Assembly (NCBI GenBank): GCA_007844125.1
Contig: CM017559.1
Coordinates: forward strand, 31,347,926-31,411,925
Reading direction: 5' to 3'
DNA: 64,000 bases
From: Sinonovacula constricta
Taxonomy: Eukaryota > Mollusca > Bivalvia > Cardiida > Solecurtidae
Shown: piece after piece, positions 1 through 63,332 of the stretch
How positions within the stretch are numbered: position 1 is the first letter of the stretch
How the letters are laid out: each line of letters begins with the position of its first letter
Program-made: the position numbers and the translations under genes
The notes under the pieces: generated by a model
Databases searched by the model: none
The model's input: only the letters and a program-made list of their open reading frames with translations
Told to the model about the DNA's origin: nothing

Positions 1-280
1 TTCAATTTGATCCGATTACTTCCTCAAATACTAGTTATTAATGAAAACCCTGCAGAAGGAACTATTTTCCATACCATGAACACTGAACACTAGGATATTC
101 AAGTGTAAATTATTACTTTTCTTCACAATCAATACTGAACCTAATCATAATAAGACACCTTCCCTACTTTTTTCCACTGCAGAAGGAGCTTGGGGTACAT
201 TAATGATACGACTGACAATAACTGCTCTAGACCCAAAGGAACAAAGCTGTCAGCTTAAATCTGCAATTGATGTTGTTTTT

Positions 281-505
281 TTTTGTTACATAGCACTGAC
301 ACAATTATGGTCAAATTGGCGATATCCAGCTAATTATTTGGGGAGGAAAGCACCAGACTTATGTCTGGGTAGAACCACTGCTGCACTGCAGATTAGCGGA
401 AAAACCTTCCCACTTAAAAGTTCTTGCCCTGACTGGGATTCTGTGAGGGACTGAGGAGTTACAAAGTCAGTGAATCTAACCGCTTGGCGACGGTTGGCCC
501 CTCAC
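281..505 (-). mobile_element. tRNA-derived SINE, family A
   Basis: The tRNA-like head lies at the right end, so the element reads on the minus strand. Shared landmarks with the other family A copies are a tail beginning with a 'ttgttacat-gcactgac' segment, a middle 'ccagacttatgtctggg' hairpin-like segment, and a degenerate A/B-box region ending near 'ggcccctcac'. This copy is diverged; its B box is hard to recognise. Confidence 0.7.
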
Positions 506-2827
506 AATCGGTAATTTATCAGATATTTACTATCAAGACTGATAGGTGATACATTTACTTAAAGCTTCACACCACTTTTAATAGCATCTGGTTTTCTTAT
601 TTGCAGCATAGCTTGATCTTTGGATAGCTTGGCTTTTTCTTGTTTTTTGTTAACTCAAACATTTAACAATGTATGGTAATAGGATTTTTTTTTAAAAACC
701 AGTGTTCAATGTTCTATAGAAGATTCTTTCCTTCTTATTTTAGGTTAAAATATGGTAAATAACACCAATTAACAAATATATTAACCCAATTGTCCAACAA
801 TATCTTACCCTGCTCACGTTGCTGCCTATAAAATTCCTTCTTGGCTAAAAAAATTAAAAGAAAAGAAAGAAAAACCAAAGTCAAGGGACCACTTATATGT
901 CATATAGGATGCAAAAAAAAAATATATTTGATGTGTAAGTTGTCCTCACTGTGATCTAAGAAACATGATTTTCCCATAATAAACAGTGCCACAGATTTTT
1001 GTTTTAAAATAACCAGGTTATCTATTAAGTTGTTGAAATGCTCTTTTTTGTGTGCGCATATAATGAAAATCTGGTCGACAGCATTTTTTTAACAGGTTTA
1101 AGTTTACAAGAAGCTGTCACTTTTGTTAAAAAAAACAACAACAGCATTTCATGTGTTTTGTTTTGTGTGTGTATGAGATAACAAAAGTAAATAATCATAA
1201 TACTTGTTGTTTACAAAATTAGACATAGGCCAAAACTGAAACCAAAAATGGCCAACATGAGCATACTTTATCTCAAGAGGAATATACCAAATTATTTGAG
1301 TATATACATATGTATGCCATTTTAAGTATATGCTAAGAAAATAAAATCTTCCAAAATTCTTTTCCTGTACAGATCTTTTTTAATAGCAATACTCATTGTC
1401 ACTCTGTTTTCTTAAACACTTAGTTAATGAAATGAAATAAAAAGTGAGTAATTAGAAAAAAAGAATTTTCTTTTTTCTTTTTTGTTTTCTCTAAAAAAAA
1501 AAGCTCCCATCAACTCTGTGAATTATTTTACTCATACAGCATTTTTCCTTTCTATTTGTATCAAGAAAATGTGAACAAAACAAGATGAGCAACAAATAAA
1601 AGTATTTTAGTAAATGTAAGAAAACAGTGCTTGCAACTTTAAGAATGACCATCACACAAACATTTTTAACCTTTTATTTATTCATACCAATTTTAATCTT
1701 CAATTTATTTAGAGCAAGCAAAGCCTTTACCTGAACAGACCAATAATAGGATTAACCTCACATTACCCTGAGCCCTGTCTCTGCATACCTTAACTATATA
1801 TTCATACATACACTGAGCAAAACCCTTCAAGATGATATAATTTTGGCACCAAATCTAAACTATTTATCAGAATAACCATTTGTCAAAACAAATTTTGAAA
1901 GGCAATATCTGCTACCACATTAGTCATGGATTTGAATCTAATCAAACACGGGGAGTTGTTCTACCTGTAAACGCACCTGTTTAAATTGATTTTCACATGA
2001 TAAGCATACCTTCACGTATTGATCAGTTTGATAAAAGCTTAATAAAGTTGATAACAAATGGGTAATAGATAGCAAGGTGATTATGTAAAATATGGCAACA
2101 CAGATATGGGAAGGCCTTTGAGGGCCCTCTGCCTTCAGATGTTGTATTAATATTTACCATTAGGACAGCAGTCACCTTTTGACTTATCATAAACAGTGTT
2201 ATGATTTATCCCTTAACCAGCTTTGCATAGAATTTAATTTAGATAAATGGTACAGATCCAGATCTCCTGTTGGAAACTATCTGATCAGGATTTACACTAT
2301 TTGCTCTCAAGAATCTTCTCTCTGGTAAAGTATCTCTTGAATTTGTGAGAAAATAACAAAGAATTTGAGGGTTTTTTGACAAGTGTAGCAGGGCCAGAAA
2401 TAATAAACAGGCAAACAAACACATAGTGAACCACTGCCAAACACGGCACTGTAGGGGCTCCAAACACAGCTTAGATATACACTAGTAGTTGTATAAGGGG
2501 CACTCAAAGTATCAAATGTTGCTTCAAGAGTATATTCTGAAATATTTTTGAAGAGGGCTCAAATTATCTTCTCCTTCAGGGTATTAGATTGAGAATAAAT
2601 ATTGATTGGTTTATCAGAAAGGCTTATCAGACTGCTTGACATTGACGATTAATAATAAAATTAATAATTAAGTTGCATAGATGAAAATCTTATTTTTTTT
2701 TAAAGCATTGGTCTATACCTCAAATGGCTAACAATTACTTTTATAAAATGTCATTAAAAGAATTAATCCAGCAATATTACTGGCCAAACTTTTTCTGATA
2801 CTATTTATGTTAACAGCAAAAACATAC
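506..2827. other. No gene seen; AT-rich intergenic or intronic DNA
   Basis: No exon with a convincing reading frame and splice sites on either strand. If the gene with the exon at 2828-3250 continues, this is its downstream intron; I tested several candidate donors near 1730, 1786 and 2007 and all gave in-frame stops. Confidence 0.5.
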
Positions 2828-3250
2828 CTTTTGACTGAAGAGTAACTGTTTTTTTCATCCGAGCAAATGACTCGTTGATGCTTTGTTTTGTGTCTGCGAG
2901 ATTCAACTCCTGCTCAGTGGCTCTAACCCCTGTTTGCAATGACCTCTCTGCTGTCATGAGCAGTGATGACTTCGGGTTGAACAAATCGGTCACTGTCCGT
3001 TTGTACGTTGCCGTGGAGGAGAAGAGTCCTCGACCTTCATACTGGCTGATATACGCCTCAAGGGCCTCTGTGGCGGAGAGGAATTCTCGATCGCCAATGA
3101 GGACGGAGCCCTTGTTGCACTGGATCTTGTACGGTGTGGTAGCAGCACCGAGGGATACTGCATCCCTGCTGCCGCCGCCTCTCAATGCCATACCAACTAC
3201 ACTCTCACCCTGATTGCAGCTTTGCTGGATTGTGGGATTGAAGGATTTAC
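2828..3250 (-). CDS. Internal coding exon of an unidentified gene
   Basis: An open exon of 423 nt on the minus strand lies between an acceptor (TTATTCCAG, AG at 3252-3251) and a donor (AAAAG|GTATGT, GT at 2827-2826). It begins two bases into a codon and ends one base into a codon, so it holds 140 whole codons and is phase symmetric. The frame stays open upstream of the Met codon at 3191-3189, so that Met is probably internal. The product has a Gly/Ser-rich start, a compact segment containing GDREFLSATEALEAYISQYE, and a polar, probably helical end. No signal peptide or membrane segment. I do not recognise the family; the SATEALEAYI segment faintly recalls the LAS2/C18orf54 family, from memory only. 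Codon use is more GC-rich than the surroundings. The antisense frame across the same interval is a shadow. Confidence 0.65.
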
Positions 3251-3540
3251 CTGGAATAAGACTGTATTATGTATTTCTGTTAAAAACTTCTAAAATTGTC
3301 TTTCTTGATATATGAGCATTTTATTGATAAATAGTTTCAACAACTTTACCCGAAATAAGATGGCAGTGTAAAATTATTTTAATTAAAATTTGGAATTATG
3401 GTAAATGGAAAATATTAAGGTATTAGTACACACACTCAGCTAGCTTAAGCTTCTAAATATTGGGTCATGGTGCTTGAACTGAACTAAGAAGAGTCTGATA
3501 ACTTTATGTAAACATAATTTGTTTTTAGTTTGTTTTGTGA

Positions 3541-3855
3541 ATACATTGCAGCGACACATTTATGGTCATCATAGCTATGCCCATATTTTTGGTGGGGGAA
3601 CACCACAAACAAATGTTTGTTTGTTTTTTGTTTTTGAAATACATTGCAGCGACCATTTATGATCATTATAGCAATGCCCAGCTTTATGGTGGAGGAAGAC
3701 ACCAGACACATGTCTGGATAGAACCACTGATGCACTGCAAGTCAGTTGGAAAAACTCCCATTAAGTCCTTCAAACTCGAACCCAAGTGGTGAGAGGCTAA
3801 GCAGTAAGAGTAGTTACAAATCAGTGGCTCTACCACTGTGCCATGGGTGCCCCCT
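3541..3855 (-). mobile_element. SINE family A, with a nested or tandem partial copy
   Basis: Two tails follow each other: a truncated one (about 3541-3629) and a full copy (about 3630-3855). The full copy ends with a tRNA-like head that includes a B-box-like 'ctcgaaccc' (reverse strand) and an A-box-like segment before 'ccatgggtgcc'. Head at right, so minus orientation. Confidence 0.8.
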
Positions 3856-3857
3856 CA

Positions 3858-4013
3858 CAAACAAACGTCGGTACAAAACTAGCAACGCACCATAGGTCAG
3901 CTAGACGACAACCCCACAGTAATTTTGTTGCCCCATTTTGAACCCACACGGTGAGAACCGAGTAGTAAAAGGAGTTTAAATTTGGCAACTCTACCACTTA
4001 ACCACAGGCCCTC
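3858..4013 (-). mobile_element. SINE family A, diverged third copy
   Basis: Directly follows the previous copy. It keeps a recognisable 'ttgaacccacacggtgaga' head segment and the 'actctaccacttaaccac' A-box region, but the body is shortened. It suggests insertion of one SINE next to another. Confidence 0.6.
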
Positions 4014-4865
4014 ATTTGTTTAAGGTAAATAGCAATTTATAACAATTATTTGCACACTGATGTGTGGGCCATCCTGATAACATAAATAAAAGTTTTTAAT
4101 TAATTATGAATTATCTGCACCAAAACTGCACATACTTCTTACAAATTATACTCCACTTTCTTACAGTCTGTCAATAAAAATAACTCGGAGAAAAAACTAC
4201 AATTATTTCATACCAGTAACTTGTTGCTAAAGGGTACATCATCCACTCAAGATAATGCTAATTTAGGTCATTGCTGCAATTACGAATATGGACATTTGAA
4301 AACCATTAATAAGAAATGAAAAATTTACCTTTGTAGATAGAAAAATCCTAATGCAATTTTAGTGTTATTCCTATGGCCCTCCTGATAACAAAGATACCCT
4401 TAAAATAACGTCTGGACTTCTATCTCAAGTGAATTCACAAGAAATTCCAAATCTCGCATTCAAAGGATACCGGTAAGCAGTGATTTGACGGCTCAAATGA
4501 AAGCCTCTTAAGTAAAGATACAGCTGTAAATGGGATCTAAATTGGGATATTGCTGGATCAGACGGCAAACATCTTAATCCTCCCTGGTTGCCAGTGAGTA
4601 AACTTGTACAGGAAATTAAAAGATACAAATCATGTATTTTACTTTGAATTAGTAAAAGATGCAATGTTCTGCTTTTGGAATGCAGAAAAAAAACTGTTCT
4701 AAAAATAAAATTCAACAAACCTCTGCCTTATTTGTTTTGTGATGTCACTATTCACAAGACTTCTAGTAAGATATATATTGACACTGTACCAAATTATTGA
4801 TATTCTCCTAAATTTGGCAGCAGTGTGTTTTTAAAACTCTAACTCAATATTTCACAAGTTTAAAG
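4014..4865. other. No gene seen
   Basis: AT-rich sequence. A short splice-flanked segment near 4325-4380 on the minus strand has an in-frame stop in the phase needed by the exon at 2828-3250, so I did not call it. Confidence 0.5.
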
Positions 4866-4869
4866 ATAG

Positions 4870-5037
4870 TGTAACGAACGCAGGAGTAGAAATATAAGCG
4901 CTTCAAACCAGCCTCGCTGCTGGGTTAACTCTTTAGCGACGCGGTTTCAGCGGCTTCCCGATTTGCGCGGTTAAGCAACGGTTACCGTGGCCGGTGTACG
5001 GATGGGTGACCGTTGGGGAGCGCCGGCCTGCGTTACA
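4870..5037 (+). repeat. Left LTR of the TRIM, with 5S-rRNA-like segment
   Basis: Starts TG, ends CA. A TATA-like 'atataag' lies near 4891-4897. The 5S-like part spans about 4957-5030: 'ggttaagcaacg' around 4969-4980 corresponds to the 5S box A region, and GGATGGGTGACCG at 5000-5012 corresponds to box C. The distance from TAAGCA to GGATGGG is 28 nt, the same as in metazoan 5S rRNA as I recall it. Confidence 0.88.
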
Positions 5038-5038
5038 T

Positions 5039-5056
5039 TGGTGGCAGCGGTGGGAT
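5039..5056 (+). other. Primer binding site complementary to tRNA-Leu 3' end
   Basis: TGGTGGCAGCGGTGGGAT is the reverse complement of ATCCCACCGCTGCCACCA, which matches the 3' end of eukaryotic tRNA-Leu (AAG type, as recalled) plus CCA, over 18 nt without mismatch. It begins one base after the left LTR, the standard location. Confidence 0.85.
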
Positions 5057-5125
5057 AGTCAACTGCCGGACTGGAGTTGCGTGACCACGGAACTTCCCAG
5101 GCCAAGTCTCGGGACGAGACTTCTC

Positions 5126-5139
5126 GGAGGGGGGAGTAA
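5126..5139 (+). other. Polypurine tract of the TRIM
   Basis: GGAGGGGGGAG at 5126-5136 followed by TAA directly abuts the right LTR; this is where plus-strand DNA synthesis is primed in LTR elements. Confidence 0.85.
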
Positions 5140-5307
5140 TGTAACGACCGCAGGAGTAGAAATATAAGCGCTTCAAACCAGCCTCGCTGCTGGGTTAACT
5201 CTTTAGCGACGCGGTTTAAGCGGCTTCCCGATGTGCGCGGTTAAGCAACGGTTACCGTGGTCGGTGTACGGATGGGTGACCGTTGGGGAGCGCCGGCCTG
5301 CGTTACA
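5140..5307 (+). repeat. Right LTR of the TRIM, with 5S-rRNA-like segment
   Basis: Same length as the left LTR. Differences seen: A/C near the start, C/A and T/G in the middle, C/T just before the box C region. The 5S-like segment is about 5227-5300, with box C at 5270-5282. Confidence 0.9.
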
Positions 5308-5311
5308 ATAG

Positions 5312-6711
5312 CTTCTGTTTAATTGTTTAAAGCCAGAGACAGTTACTGAAGTAGCTTATCGTTTTAATTTACAGTGAGTTTAGAAACACAGAAGATAAAT
5401 ATGCTTAATGTCAAATTTAGATAACACCAGGATACTGGTATGACTATATAAAGGATAGCCATGCGCCACATGAATTAAAGAACAACCCACCTTTTCCATG
5501 TTTTCAATGCAATATAAAAGATTAAGAGGATAGCACAGCATAGGGCTGTCTTATCAGGATCTGAACTATCTGCTGCCAAGCTTCGAATTATATATGTTAT
5601 TTTTACCTGTGCCTGTAGTTGCTGAGTCTCTAGCTAGATAAATACTGCTATCTTTGCATGTGGTGGTAGTCTCTAGCTATATATATATTGTATATAATGT
5701 TGTCTCTCACTGGCCATGTAGTCTCATTTTGACACACTAACAACTGTCCAGTGAGGATAGTCATACATACTTTCTATGTCAGATGAACCAACCCTTCATA
5801 AATTATAAACATGATTTCAGAGCAGAAGGTTAGGGATCGAGAAACAAGAATGGTTGACCCTCTTAACCAAAGTTCACTGTGGGAGTGTAAATCACCTACA
5901 CTCTATGCTGGTTATAACACACATGTACACATATACCACATTTCAATGTAGGAGTCTGGATCGCTGTGTTCTTGCATGAAAAGATTCATTTATATATTCA
6001 TATTTCATTTAGTTCTTTAGTTTACATTAGTCATGAAAATAATTAATAATTTCATACTGCAATGGAATGTTTATTGTGTAACTTCACCTGTCATTTCACA
6101 AGAAATGAAATAAAATTAATATTAACTTGTTAGAGACAAGTTTGTCAGGTGGGTGACTTCCTGTGTAAAGATATTTATAACTCCATACTATCTGAATTGT
6201 CTGTCCATTCTAAATACCAAGAGAAGAATTGTCTAAGTGGGTAATATTCTGTGAATCTACTAAGGTACACCATGAACCTGAACACAGCATAACATACCAG
6301 TCAGTCCAGACAAATAATCCAGAAACCCTAGAAGTATGTCCAGCAAAGCTTTGATCACTGCCGTCCTTTGGTTTGTATCAAAATTGGTCTCTACAATGTC
6401 AATACTTTAAGAAGTGCTTTATCAGTGTCCAAACAGGCACATAAATTCAAAGTGTTGTATATAAACACTGATGATAAGTCTAAGGGCACTCTAATTTGTC
6501 AAGGCCTACTGGAAGATGGGCGCGATTTTCTATTTTGGTTTTCATAAATGTCAGTGAAACCAGTCATGGAGCTGCCATTTTATTTGTTTAAGAACAAACA
6601 AAGGCACCATTCTTTTTCAATTTTAGTACCTTATGTCATTGCCTTGGTTTTAAACCTGCTGCCTACAGTACCTGGAGATCTGTCTACTGCACCATCAGAG
6701 CATATCTCATT
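5312..6711. other. No gene seen
   Basis: AT-rich sequence without convincing exons or recognisable repeats apart from short simple stretches. Confidence 0.45.
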
Positions 6712-14254: not shown

Positions 14255-14604
14255 TACGAGGGATCAACACATTTAATTCATTTAGCTAAGGTTAGTCGTA
14301 TAATCTGTATTATTATTAATGTAAACAATTAAGCTGTGTAACAAAAATATTAATTATATATTTTGAATTACTATTAATAAATTATATTCAAACTTAATTC
14401 AAACTTTTTTGTTTCTCTTTTCAAAAAACTAACACGGCCCTGGAATGTGTAGCTTAAAATAGATGTGAACGTCACATATATTTACCAACAACTCACGAGA
14501 TCGGTCGCCATTACTACCGAACGGACGACAGAGCAGGAAGATCTCGCCAATTTTGGCATTTGAGTGCTAGGTTGGTCTTTTCAGACCTTACTGAATTAGA
14601 CACC

Positions 14605-17466
14605 ATGTCGAGCATCAGCCCCACATTCGGAGGAAGTAAACCTTTTAATGCAGAAAATTCTTTATTTAAATCTTTGTGGGGTAAACAATGGGGTCGAACT
14701 TCAAATCAGGGACTGAATGACATCGACCAGTGCACACAAACCAGCGTAACTACGGGCACTCCTCTGGAAAGCGTGAGGAAACTAGCTGAAGAAATCGGCG
14801 TCGATGTCGTACTAAACTTCGGGCAAGAAAATGAAAGGAGAGCACCTGACAGGTTCTGTAAAACGATGAGAAAAACAGTCAAAGAAGTTTCTGATCGACA
14901 TGACATTGCGTTAAAAGCTATGGTAAACAAACTGAAAGTTGATGACACAAACGCTTTTAAGACTTTCGTCAGCGTGGCTGATGAAATCTTTGAGGATGGA
15001 CAGATTAACTGGGGTCGTGTTATTATTGTCTACGCGTTTGGTGCACGACTAGGTGCTCATTTGAAACAAATTCGACCAGGATATGAAGATAAAATTGCTT
15101 TGTATGTAGGAAAATACGTTGCAAATAAATTGGGACGTTGGATTCTTGATAATGGTGGATGGGTAAGTTTTGTGGATTCTAGGAGTATCCAATATTTTGT
15201 AAGCACATAAATTTACTGTCCATATTGGTCATTTTGCAACTTAGATAAATAAGTTTTATCAGTTTAAACAGAGACCTATTCACAAATATGGGACAGATGT
15301 TTTTTTTCATCTCGGCTACCTGGACCACACAAGCGGTTCTCATTCAAGTACCAGATACGAGACAAACTGTAGGCGGCTAGGTCAATCACGGATGAAATCA
15401 CAGATTGGCCTAGTTTAAATACGTTCATGTAACCATTCTTAGGGATGTTAGGTTATAAGCATTTATATTTAAAGTATGCTCAGTAGTAATTATAATAACA
15501 GCATGAGGATGACTCGCATAATCCCATTCTTGACCAATTTACATGTTTTTTAAGAATATAAAAATAATTGCTCAGTGATCTGAAGGACTATGATATGGCT
15601 GAGTATGAAGAATATAACCTTTTTTTGTTATAAACAAATTGTACACATCACAGTGACAGCTGCTAAAGATACATTGGTAAAAAGTACACTTATAATAATA
15701 CTTGAAATGCATGATTATGTTAATTAAAAATATATCAATAAATATCAGATTGATAGATAAAGGTAAATAAATATTAATATTATTTTATTTTGTACATTTT
15801 TATTGGATATATCATGTTTAATGACTCTGTAGTGTTCGATTTAGTCAAAATTCAATTTAGACAGCTGACTGATACATTATTGTAACAAATTCTTTTTTAA
15901 AAGACTAGGCAAAAATGCAGAGAGATCATATTTCTTAACTTTTGTGAGTGTATAAAACCAGTGTTCAAGTTCTCTAAATTAAAACTATAAATAAAAAATC
16001 CTGAAAGCATTATTTATGATCACTTATCAGTTTAGTTCACACAATCATTGGTAACAGATTCTGAATGTGACAGAATGAGATAACATATCATTGTTTCAAA
16101 CCAGGAAATCAAGGATAGGTTTTATTTTGAAAGACAAGATATCATTATTTCAAACCAGGAATTTAAGGAAAGGTTTTATTTTAAAGATAACATCATTGTT
16201 TCAAAGCAGAAAATTAAGGATAGGTTTTATTTTAAATGGTGGTCTCAATAGTGTACTTGTACAGATCATCCCTTTTTGCAGGGTGGTACATAGACTTTAA
16301 GTTCAGTCTTTTTAAGTTTCTATTTTTTGTCAGAAATTGAATAAAGTATACCAGCTTGGAAACAACTGTATACACCAGCAAATCAAGATGACATAATGTA
16401 AAATGAAAGAAGGAGAAGAGAAGAATTGGCTAGTGTTGTGATGCCTGTATGGATCAAGGGACACTAACTATCAAACAATAGACTCAGATTTTGAGACTTA
16501 AATTGAAAACCTACCATTGCTCCAGAACTCCTACAGTTAGCCTGCTAAGAATGAATGGTTCCAGCTAAGACAAATAGTGCATACACATGAACTCTCCCGC
16601 TTTTGGAGGGAGACTCCATCCTTTAAGGTTCAAAATTATTTTAAAATAAAGGATGTTTTACACATTTTCAGAAATCTCCCAACTCGGAAACAGATAACTT
16701 CCTTCTTTGTTTTCATAAAAATAATAATCCTGCCATGTTGCAAGTGAAATTCTCCCACTTTGGTCTGAGAAAAGGTTCACATGTATGATAGGTTCGATAA
16801 AGTTCATTCTGTTTAATTGTAAGTAAATAGCTAAGAATCTAATATTTGCTATTGACAATTGTAGCATACCAAGGATTATTGTAATTTCTTTTAACTGCAT
16901 AATTGGGTAGATTGGTGCTATGGAAATTGTCTCCCTTGTTGTTTAATATCTGAGGTTTTCCAGACAGTAGGTAGGTCCTTATAGTTGGAATTCTTGGACT
17001 TAATTGCCTGTTCTTTTGTAGATATTGCAATTATAAACAGTGAAATTTCTTACCTTTGCATAAATAGAAGCTTTAAATTTGGTAAATACTTAGAGATATG
17101 TTATTTAAAAGAAAACGGATGTGTTTGTTGATGATGGTTAACCTGGGTATTACCAGAAAGGCAGAAAACTTGACTACATAGAGCACAAACATAAAAACGG
17201 AGTAAAACAAATGAATTGGGTACATTGTATTTAGGGACTGTTCAGGGGAGGCTATTCATTAATGTCTCTCATTGCTTAATTTTTAATAGTAACAGGTGTC
17301 TCTGGATGGTGTACTCGGGAAATGACAGTTTTTTTCTCTTTTTCAGAACGCATTTTCTGACTTTTTCTCTGATGAGAATGCCGTTGAAGACAAAGTATGG
17401 AAGGGTCTGCTGTTCACGGCCACTCTGGGCAGTCTGGGAGCACTGGCAGCTGTGATGGCCCGATAG
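14605..17466 (+). CDS. Bcl-2 family protein, Mcl-1-like, two coding exons
   Basis: Exons 14605-15162 and 17347-17466, joined W186|N187 by GGATGG|GTAAGT and TTTTTCAG|AACG; 225 residues. The ATG at 14605 has a CACCATGT context; no upstream ATG in frame. BH1 is about 126-149 (GQINWGRVIIVYAFGARL), BH2 about 178-193 (RWILDNGGW NAFSDFF), and a C-terminal hydrophobic anchor about 205-225 would fix it in the outer mitochondrial or ER membrane. The intron sits just after the BH2 Trp, a position conserved in animal Bcl-2 genes. The stretch 86-120 aligns by eye with the Mcl-1 BH3 to BH1 region, but the Gly-Asp core is Val-Lys, so BH3 is degenerate; this and the FF-x-E end of BH2 favour a Mcl-1-like guardian over Bak/Bax. 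Such proteins block apoptosis by holding BH3 helices in the BH1-BH2-BH3 groove. It lies divergent to a BH3-only-like gene. Confidence 0.93.
16086..16238 (+). repeat. Short tandem repeat, three units of about 50-56 bp
   Basis: Units begin 'atcatt-tttcaaa-cagga' and end 'aggttttatttt-aa'. Lies in the intron of the Bcl-2 family gene; not coding. Confidence 0.8.
16581..16786. mobile_element. MITE-like element, family G (copy 1)
   Basis: Ends ATACACATGAAC (16581-16592) and GTTCACATGTAT (16775-16786) are inverted repeats with two mismatches. Next to the left end is 'tctcccgctttt'; next to the right end 'ttctcccactt'. A second copy lies at 26199-26405. No coding capacity; mobilising transposase unknown. 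Confidence 0.6.
16918..17266. mobile_element. MITE-like element, family C (copy 1)
   Basis: Matches 32628-32985, 38806-39172 and 63385-63640. Landmarks are 'ttgtctcccttgtt' at the left, 'ttggaattcttggactt', 'gtgaaatttcttacctttgc', 'agagatatgttattt', and 'caggggaggctattca' at the right. The two ends share an imperfect inverted 'TCTCCC' segment. Ends inside the intron just before the last Bcl-2 exon. Confidence 0.65.
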
Positions 17467-29413: not shown

Positions 29414-30532
29414 TTAGTGTGGAGTAACGAAACATGTGGGCCCATCACCATTTTGCAAAAAAAGTACTCCAACAATAGTAGAAAATCCGAGAAGTAAAAA
29501 TAGCACTTTCAGTAGCCTTTGGTCAGAAGAATTGAACTCACATGGCAAAACCTCAAAAAATGTCACATACAAGAAAGTACCACAGGCTATGCCAGTTAGG
29601 AGTCCTTGAACCAATAAAGAGGACTTGGAGTCCCACAAATTCACTATGCCAATACCTATAGCTATGCCAACTGGAGAAGTCAGTGAGAAGAAAATAATGG
29701 ACCGAATAGTGCCTGCTTGAGACAGCTCACTCTGTACAAAATTCAGGCCCAGGCTGAAGCTAAGTATTGATTTATGTATGACTAAAGCAGCGAAAATATC
29801 CAACACGTCTTGAGACTTCTCCTGAAGACCGACTGCAAGACCCTCAAATAGAGAGTGGAAGGACAGCGCCAACAGCAGCAGGAGAGATCTCAAATAGGAG
29901 TGTGCATGATGAGGTCCAATATCATCATGGGTATTTGAATTGTTATCATCCTGGTTGGGACCTATAGATACTCTTTCGGAGCATTCATCACAGTGACGCT
30001 GGGTTCCATGGCGACATCTGTAGGAGAAACTTCCACTTCGAGCTGCAGGTCGATCACAGATTCCTTCGTATGAATGGTCTGTAATCTCCGAATGAGATCT
30101 CATTAACCGTCGTCCACTTTCCTCACTTGATGGTGGTATTAAGGGACTGGTTTCATCCGGAACTGTAGGTGTTTCCTCATGTTCATGTTCTTTGACTGTA
30201 AGCACAATCTGTTCAATGATCAAAATAAGGAACAATCCAAACATCATCACAAATTCAGCCACAGGGAAAGATGTAAAAATGCCCATGTCATTCAGTGTGG
30301 TCCCAAGGTCTACTCTGGTATCAGGGAGTAGATCTAAAATACCTGTAGCCAGGAAAACGCCGGCTGCATAACAGCTCATAAAACTAAGCAGACGTTTATA
30401 CAATATTTCATGTGCGTTACCATCAGATTTCTTTTGAAACAGTTTTTTCAGAAACACTGGTAAAATACCCAAAAGAAATGTCATCATAAACAATGAGAAC
30501 AAAACTATGACCTTCAATATGACAACCTCCAT
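29414..30532 (-). CDS. SLC39A1: ZIP family zinc transporter (SLC39A1/2/3 type)
   Basis: 372 residues in one exon, ATG at 30532. Eight membrane segments: about 4-30, 46-70, 89-113, 213-237, 243-268, 276-299, 305-331 and 338-361. TM4 carries the ZIP signature (LALSFHSLFEGLAVGLQ; H226, E230, G231) and TM5 has H253, residues that line the metal path. The TM3-TM4 loop (about 115-212) is long, acidic and His-rich (HEHEE, NTHDDIGPHHAH), the usual metal-sensing loop. ZIP proteins bring zinc, sometimes iron, into the cytosol from outside or from organelles. By eye it is closest to vertebrate ZIP1 (LATGILDLLPD, GTFLYVTFFEVLP), but ZIP2/ZIP3 cannot be excluded, so the symbol is approximate. An acceptor CTGATTTTTAG just upstream (exon starts at 30570) implies a noncoding first exon farther right. 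No break or missing key residue. Confidence 0.94.
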   Translation of the reverse strand: MEVVILKVIVLFSLFMMTFLLGILPVFLKKLFQKKSDGNAHEILYKRLLSFMSCYAAGVFLATGILDLLPDTRVDLGTTLNDMGIFTSFPVAEFVMMFGLFLILIIEQIVLTVKEHEHEETPTVPDETSPLIPPSSEESGRRLMRSHSEITDHSYEGICDRPAARSGSFSYRCRHGTQRHCDECSERVSIGPNQDDNNSNTHDDIGPHHAHSYLRSLLLLLALSFHSLFEGLAVGLQEKSQDVLDIFAALVIHKSILSFSLGLNFVQSELSQAGTIRSIIFFSLTSPVGIAIGIGIVNLWDSKSSLLVQGLLTGIACGTFLYVTFFEVLPCEFNSSDQRLLKVLFLLLGFSTIVGVLFLQNGDGPTCFVTPH

Positions 30533-30840
30533 TTTGTCTTGTTGTCTTTTCCTTCCTCTGTTTTCTTTTCCTAAAAATCAGGAAAATTTATGGAGAGCGT
30601 TTATGGTAAACTGCTGCTCAAAGTAAACTTCCCAAGTAGGAACAGGAAATCGGTGTCCAATTTAAAGGCTTCTTACAAAAAATCCAGACAAAACGAATTT
30701 CGGATATGGCTTTGCTGAATCATGATGCTGTTGCTGATTCTTTTTCTTTCTTCATGTTTTTTCATTACAAATTTATTCCAAGTTATTACACATTTTCAAC
30801 GTTAATAAACACGGACCTGCGTAAAACTATAAAAACATGT

Positions 30841-32627: not shown

Positions 32628-32985
32628 AAGTGGAAGTTGTCTCCCTTGTTAGATAATATCCGAGATTGTTCAAACAGTTGGTAGGTCCTTTTAATTTGAA
32701 TTCTTGGACTTTATCGCCTGTTCTTTTGCAGATGGTGCAATCACACCCTGTGAAATTTATTACTTTTGCATCAATTTTAAGCTTAAAATCCATTTAAATA
32801 TTAAGAGATATTTTTAAACAAGAAATTGTAAATTTTTTGTGATGATAGTTAACCTGGGTGTCACAAGAAAGGTAGAAATTACAACACAATCTCCAAAGAG
32901 CACAAGCATAAAAACCAAGTAATCCAAATGAAAGGCCCTACTTGCATTTTGGGATTATTCAAGGAACACTTATGTCTCTCATTGA
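32628..32985. mobile_element. MITE-like element, family C (copy 2)
   Basis: Closely parallels 16918-17266: 'agttgtctcccttgtta', 'ggtaggtccttt', 'ttggacttt-tcgcctgttc', 'ggttaacctgggtgtcacaag' and the 'gaacacttatgtctctcat' end. Confidence 0.65.

Positions 32986-36658: not shown

Positions 36659-49830
<13,172 letters not shown>

Positions 49831-52985: not shown

Positions 52986-63332
<10,347 letters not shown>

Follow-up and report, generated by a model that had tools for sequence, protein, structure and literature searches.

A TRIM with 5S-type promoter boxes in its LTRs from a bivalve genome

Findings

The segment 4870-5307 of the window (the whole 64,000-nucleotide stretch of DNA analysed here) is a single 438-bp TRIM with two LTRs and a 102-bp internal part, and each LTR contains what, by its sequence, is a pair of small-RNA-gene promoter motifs, a box A and a box C set at the spacing of 5S rRNA genes. 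We consider it probable that this is an Ajax-like TRIM with a pol III promoter, which would be mobilised by a Gypsy element primed with tRNA-Leu. An earlier note had described the segment as a Cassandra-like TRIM in a presumed animal genome; the observation is genuine, the Cassandra label is an analogy, and elements of this kind are already known in animals.

Anatomy of the element

The segment has the full anatomy of a TRIM, being shorter than 1 kb, with two LTRs, a PBS, a PPT, no proteins and a short target-site duplication (TSD), within the 4-6 bp given by Kojima 2024. Its features are as follows:

4866-4869, no strand: left target-site duplication ATAG, from the sequence
4870-5037, plus strand: 5' LTR, 168 bp, TGTAACG...CGTTACA, 4/168 differences from 5140-5307
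4893-4898, plus strand: TATA-like TATAAG of the 5' LTR, 27 nt upstream of the 5S-like start, putative role
4920, plus strand: predicted transcription start, placed by register with the 5S gene of contig L001 (see below)
4969-4980, plus strand: box A-like GGTTAAGCAACG of the 5' LTR, by pattern and two-box scoring
5000-5012, plus strand: box C-like GGATGGGTGACCG of the 5' LTR, by pattern and two-box scoring
5038-5139, plus strand: internal domain, 102 bp, too small for retrotransposon proteins
5039-5056, plus strand: tRNA-Leu PBS TGGTGGCAGCGG, 18/18 complementary to the tRNA-Leu 3' end, 1 nt after the 5' LTR
5104-5122, plus strand: perfect 8-bp hairpin AAGTCTCG-GGA-CGAGACTT, within the 3' internal part common to sister TRIMs
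5126-5136, plus strand: polypurine tract GGAGGGGGGAG, ending 3 nt before the 3' LTR
5140-5307, plus strand: 3' LTR, 168 bp, direct repeat of 4870-5037
5163-5168, plus strand: TATA-like TATAAG of the 3' LTR, from the sequence
5239-5250, plus strand: box A-like motif of the 3' LTR, by pattern and two-box scoring
5270-5282, plus strand: box C-like motif of the 3' LTR, by pattern and two-box scoring
5308-5311, no strand: right target-site duplication ATAG, from the sequence
5362-5365, plus strand: first downstream TTTT run, in the flank outside the element

Alignment and pattern matching bore out exactly the earlier account of a 168-bp LTR pair at these coordinates carrying 5S-like words 28 nt apart (TAAGCA to GGATGGG). 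The LTRs have diverged by 2.4%, which indicates that the copy is not brand new, and it is the only copy of the element within the window. They begin with TG and end with CA, with a 7-bp terminal inverted repeat, and the insertion is flanked by a TSD that in this one copy measures 4 bp (ATAG/ATAG; the adjoining 5-mers are GATAG vs ATAGC). The PBS was scored against 24 tRNA ends of human type, and the runner-up on the plus strand of the window reaches 14/18 with any of these. The G+C content of the element is 58% as against 34-35% in the 1-kb flanks, and its plus strand contains no TTTT of the kind that terminates pol III transcription. The hairpin at 5104-5122 could serve as a packaging or second-strand signal.

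Direct repeats around a short spacer would also be produced by a tandem duplication of a 5S-bearing repeat or SINE3, without any LTR element being involved. SINE3 elements share the 5S-type internal promoter but have no LTR, PBS or PPT and are moved by non-LTR elements (PMC10886601, in the portion available to us). The TG..CA ends, the terminal inverted repeat, the PBS 1 nt after the first repeat, the PPT before the second and the 4-bp TSD all speak against such a duplication, and we rejected it as exceedingly improbable.

Relationship of the LTRs to 5S rRNA genes

The box A-like word GGTTAAGCAACG begins at 4969 and 5239 and the box C-like word GGATGGGTGACCG at 5000 and 5270 in the two LTRs. 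The linked pattern GTTAAGCA-N19..25-GGATGGGTGACCG has 2 matches in the window and none in 100 dinucleotide shuffles, and in a genome contig collection of 257 billion bases it matched just two stretches, L001 and L002. The match in L001 is an animal-type 5S gene with identical box spacing (Rfam score 114.2 bits); the second, in a Sphingomonadaceae record, has a different spacing and no Rfam match up to an E-value of 1. Our yardstick for the 5S comparisons was a single gene, that of L001, which was returned by the pattern scan of the contig collection. The L001 record itself (JAOZOU010000036.1, positions 1-5648) is titled as a bacterial MAG. Its combination of 5S, U1, U2 and histone 3' elements resembles that of an animal contig, and it looks like a contamination of the public genome collection.

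Scored against the two boxes of the L001 gene on both strands of the window, both LTRs match at 23/24 positions; the runners-up are a site at 5215 within the 3' LTR, which scores 16, and the best site outside the element, which scores 15. The binomial expectation of a 23/24 match in the window, assuming equal base frequencies, is 3e-8. Against the box consensus of plant Cassandra elements the LTRs match at 22/25 specified positions, with three falling outside the consensus, as against 19 for the second-best site of the window; of 13 gaps tried (12-24), the 18-nt gap published for Cassandra scores best. Bivalve 5S box A may read GTTAAGCAACG letter for letter, and we presume ttaagcaacgtcg to be molluscan 5S words; a literature text search with these words and with a primer found no paper containing either. 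The 13 letters of box C are also present in a Crassostrea 5S primer (PMC4778033, as excerpted), beyond which the text search with the element's words found nothing relevant, the remaining hits being judged by title.

The likeness is confined to these boxes. The Rfam 5S model gave no match in the window at the gathering score, and none up to an E-value of 10 within 4401-6000. When the 118 bases of 4920-5037 (5' LTR only) were isolated, 5S_rRNA ranked first among 4227 Rfam families and on the correct strand, with a score of 13.5 bits (E-value 1.6), which is not significant and lies below the RF00001 gathering cut-off of 38. As a control, a 68-nt piece of the L001 gene with its promoter intact was given to the same model and reached 45.5 bits; such a piece is therefore detectable, and the LTR segment has really diverged. 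In whole-LTR alignments to L001 scored 2/-3 the LTRs reach 30 and 27 as against shuffle maxima of 28 and 26 (0/2000 shuffles reach either), and with 1/-1 scoring 3 and 1 of 2000 shuffles reach the LTR scores. When both strands of the window were cut into 1520 half-overlapping tiles and scored 1/-1, the LTR tiles come top with 15, with unrelated tiles reaching 14. Between the boxes 5/19 positions are identical to L001 in an ungapped comparison, which is the chance level, and a gapped 2/-3 alignment pairs more. Thus the two boxes and their spacing are 5S-like at the level of sequence, and neither a full 5S fold nor a clear intermediate element is seen. In the fold predicted for RNA of the LTR, the box C end GGTGACCG pairs with the spacer segment CGGTTACC (both within 4979-5012) over 8 bp including one G-U, and part of box C might accordingly have been conserved for a structural reason, as a hairpin.

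The earlier claim that word identity, order and spacing all match the 5S promoter therefore holds for the boxes and their exact spacing but not for the stretch between them, and the alignment to an animal 5S gene, which it had proposed as a check, rises barely above the other tiles when made over the whole LTR. It had also named in advance, as what would count against it, the lack of a significant score against the 5S covariance model, and that lack is what was found. In our assessment the two-box evidence outweighs this failed score, because the boxes of a promoter can outlast the fold of the RNA. That the LTR merely happens to hold two short 5S words would sit well with the covariance score, with the few shuffles that reach the 1/-1 scores and with unrelated tiles only one point behind; set against the shuffles of the linked pattern, the binomial expectation under equal base frequencies and a scan of the whole contig collection in which one of the two matches is a 5S gene, we rejected such a coincidence as very improbable.

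Host and rest of the window

The window encodes a ZIP1-like zinc transporter in one long open frame (29414-30577), a Bcl-2 family protein (14458-15210) and a piece of a RIO domain (55355-55723). The protein search with ZIP1 scored the 7996 candidates that had most words in common with it, and the best 120 of its 433 matches were considered. The best match has 98% identity, and among the matches listed are the bivalves Mercenaria mercenaria (63%), Mya arenaria (60%) and Mactra antiquata (58%), other named bivalves (47-54%), a chiton (52%) and the nemerteans Tubulanus (46%) and Lineus longissimus (43%). We presume Mercenaria, Mya and Mactra to be heterodonts. The host is thus a bivalve, and probably a heterodont, as judged from this one gene, in agreement with the earlier presumption of an animal, molluscan host. 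On the same single-gene search it is very unlikely that the window is nemertean, which would have made the element simply the published Ajax.

Several other repeats were observed in the window. In a satellite array at 57499-60166, a 146-bp unit containing AAGGTCACGCTGTGACCTTGACCTT is repeated about 18 times (95% matches), and a tandem array at 45190-45609 has about 9.8 copies of an AT-rich 43-bp unit. A dispersed 138-nt repeat occurs in three copies (16920-17057, 32630-32767 and 38808-38945), two of which are 81% and 74% identical to the first.

Relationship to known TRIMs and LTR elements

The closest parallel is Ajax (Ajax-1_NGe and Ajax-1_LiLo; Kojima 2024), an animal TRIM described from two nemerteans with only the 5S promoter region in its LTR, a tRNA-Leu primer, lengths of 421 and 434 bp and a 5-bp TSD (PMC10886601, from the text available). 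Our element is likewise an animal TRIM with a promoter-only 5S piece in the LTR and a tRNA-Leu PBS (18/18), and at 438 bp it is close to both in length. It differs in its host (Mollusca vs Nemertea), which concerns distribution and not structure, and in its TSD (4 bp in the one copy vs 5 bp). Moreover, Ajax is said to cover box A, the intermediate element and box C, whereas here the boxes A and C are kept and the region of the intermediate element appears diverged, as measured ungapped against one 5S gene.

These comparisons bear on whether the molluscan lineage arose independently of the nemertean Ajax, which would make it a third capture of a 5S promoter; the matter concerns descent and not mechanism. 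Consistent with a separate origin are the difference in TSD length, the report of Ajax from two nemerteans only, in which it is thought to have originated (PMC10886601, text as available), and the presence of tRNA-Leu priming in the clam Steamer elements too (PMC8905726, in the part at hand). Conversely, the element shares with Ajax its primer, its promoter-only 5S piece and very nearly its length, a likeness judged by the published description. We regard an independent origin as a serious possibility, though we incline slightly against it.

The plant Cassandra elements are also TRIMs with 5S boxes A and C 18 nt apart in each LTR (box A RGTTAAGYRHGY, 18 nt, box C RRRATRGGTRACY; PMC7215508, as excerpted), and for them, too, sister TRIMs are described that share the internal part and have no 5S sequence (PMC10853983, in the accessible text). 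However, their PBS is of the Met type (TGGTATCAGAGC, in the text seen), as opposed to the Leu-type TGGTGGCAGCGG here, they come from plants and measure at least 563 bp in the dataset of PMC10853983 (as available) as against 438 bp, and their 5S sequence includes a terminator, with no TTTT in our element. We accordingly rejected membership in Cassandra on the PBS type and the missing terminator; of the earlier label, what stands is a TRIM with 5S boxes in each LTR.

The Helenus elements, which include bivalve families, resemble it as TRIMs with small-RNA-derived boxes in the LTR, 4-bp TSDs and a link to Gypsy elements (PMC10886601, in its accessible part). Their boxes, however, are derived from tRNA, and Leu is not among the primers given for bivalve Helenus in the available text of that paper. 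ARAGORN found no tRNA in the window, and the best match to box B (6/9 specified letters of the tRNA box consensus) is located upstream of that to box A (7/9). With no tRNA boxes A and B in the LTR by this consensus, Helenus was rejected. The biv-TRIMs, which are also TRIMs of bivalves, have TDRs of 202-218 bp, an inner domain of 77-80 bp, a PPT that is mostly GGGGAGA, no clear PBS as described in the available text, and a conserved segment TGATCCCAAAGGAC in most species (PMC6934838). In contrast, the corresponding features here are 168 bp, 102 bp, GGAGGGGGGAG and a clear tRNA-Leu PBS, and the conserved segment is absent from the element on reading its sequence; biv-TRIM was rejected because the repeat and inner-domain lengths are off.

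Clam Steamer and Steamer-like Gypsy elements have a 177-bp LTR starting with TGTAACA and a tRNA-Leu PBS (PMC8905726, as excerpted), resembling the present element in LTR start, LTR length and primer. They are unlike it in being autonomous, in their PBS TGGTGTCAGAAG and in their LTR end, TTAAACA or ATAAACA (same source, text at hand). A Steamer-type Gypsy element could plausibly act as the helper, a tentative assignment given that a Mytilus Steamer-like element has an Asn and not a Leu PBS (PMC11046912, in the text available).

Searches for relatives found no relative among phage records (five with pieces of 20-26 bases), and none in the viral contig collection, scanned with five DNA patterns and one protein; in the protein scan seven stretches matched a pattern and none was confirmed. 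A protein search with the antisense ORF of the element returned one candidate and none at an E-value up to 1.

Sister elements and the choice of polymerase

The ORF at 4937-5164 recovered four predicted proteins (P0121-P0124) at E-values up to 1 among five candidates (3.6e-4, 7.7e-3, 1.2e-2 and 0.65), encoded on contigs of 1.5 to 4.7 Mb. Common to the four is PRPSLGTRLLGGGSNVT, which corresponds to the translated 3' portion of the internal domain as far as the start of the LTR. They also all read (H/R)VTFGGS(G/S)GI, and the internal start of the element, including the PBS, reads IGGSGGI in another frame. In tblastn searches P0121 aligned to 5048-5146 (E-value 1.6e-10) and P0122 to 5075-5164 (3.2e-9). 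Outside the common internal part the four proteins differ from the element. The two open readings of box C, GWVT and MGD, are absent from P0121 and P0122 (by script) and from P0123 and P0124 (by eye), in a comparison where P0121 alone seems to cover an LTR from end to end, a diverged box would escape, and the third box C frame contains a stop and so could not show in such a protein. On these translated sequences, the common internal part seems to be joined in these relatives to a different LTR with no exact box C. A comparable situation is described in Asteraceae, where Cassandra-like TRIMs share part of the internal region and have TATA boxes instead of 5S sequence (PMC10853983, in the text accessible to us).

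This observation lends some weight to the idea that the element is an ordinary pol II TRIM whose TATA box lies at LTR position 24 and whose 5S-derived piece is a passive leftover that has ceased to drive transcription. The TATAAG close to the LTR start, the divergence of the spacer including the intermediate element and the absence of a terminator would suit it too. A TATAA in about the -27 zone, a motif noticed post hoc, arises in 287/20000 mononucleotide shuffles of the first 50 nt of the LTR. The -27 position fits the TATA-like element of a 5S gene and equally that of a pol II promoter, and the motif is for that reason undecisive as to the polymerase. Against a passive remnant, both LTRs keep the boxes almost letter for letter and the spacer has diverged, which is the pattern expected from selection; this argument is weak because two LTRs that belong to a single copy do not count as independent. 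We judge a pol II TRIM of this kind to be unlikely.

It is also conceivable, if doubtful, that a third independent capture took place in bivalves through an LTR swap onto an existing TRIM, perhaps a pol II one, whose internal part was kept. Under this scenario a terminator-less transcript would run through into the flank with strand transfer to the internal R, and P0121-P0124 would represent the surviving donor lineage.

Proposed mechanism

Returning to the Ajax-like pol III TRIM that we favor, TFIIIA, TFIIIC and pol III would start transcription near 4920 (LTR position 51), about 50 nt upstream of box A, leaving the first 50 bp of the LTR to serve as U3. Read-through across the internal part and the second LTR up to the oligo-T at 5362 in the flank would yield an RNA of about 446 nt. 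A host Gypsy-type element would supply the reverse transcriptase and integrase, tRNA-Leu would prime at 5039-5056, and the strong-stop DNA would transfer to the matching 5190-5307 in the 3' LTR, so that the read-through tail beyond this LTR would be left uncopied and would not be needed. Because the boxes sit downstream of the start, they would form part of the RNA and reappear in both LTRs whenever a new copy is made.

In favor of this proposal are the TRIM anatomy, the 23/24 boxes, the TATA-like motif at -27, the tRNA-Leu PBS, the 438-bp length and the bivalve ZIP1. Counting against it are the Rfam score, the lead of 15 vs 14 over unrelated tiles, the chance-level spacer, the 4-bp TSD, the missing terminator, the pairing of box C in a hairpin, a TATA-like motif that would suit pol II equally, and the single copy.

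Implications

Besides Kojima 2024, mentioned again in a 2026 meeting report (PMC12859917, as excerpted), we found no paper on a 5S-LTR element in animals among the openly searchable papers listed, as judged by titles and the beginnings of abstracts. For molluscs no report was found in openly searchable papers, and the term '5S rRNA' is absent from the main texts, as available, of the biv-TRIM paper (PMC6934838) and of a paper on bivalve transposons (PMC10294476); a molluscan 5S-LTR element may exist as a database-only entry, for instance in Repbase. The novelty suggested earlier thus extends to molluscs within the literature searched, but not to animals, where TRIMs with a 5S promoter were already published in 2024 as Ajax.

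Within this literature, animal LTR elements with a 5S promoter had been reported from a single phylum, Nemertea, and the present element adds Mollusca. Genome searches with the 438-bp query could now test whether they are ancient in these animals, have moved horizontally or were invented repeatedly. The element also suggests that a pol III transcript without a terminator of its own could still act as the template of an LTR retrotransposon.
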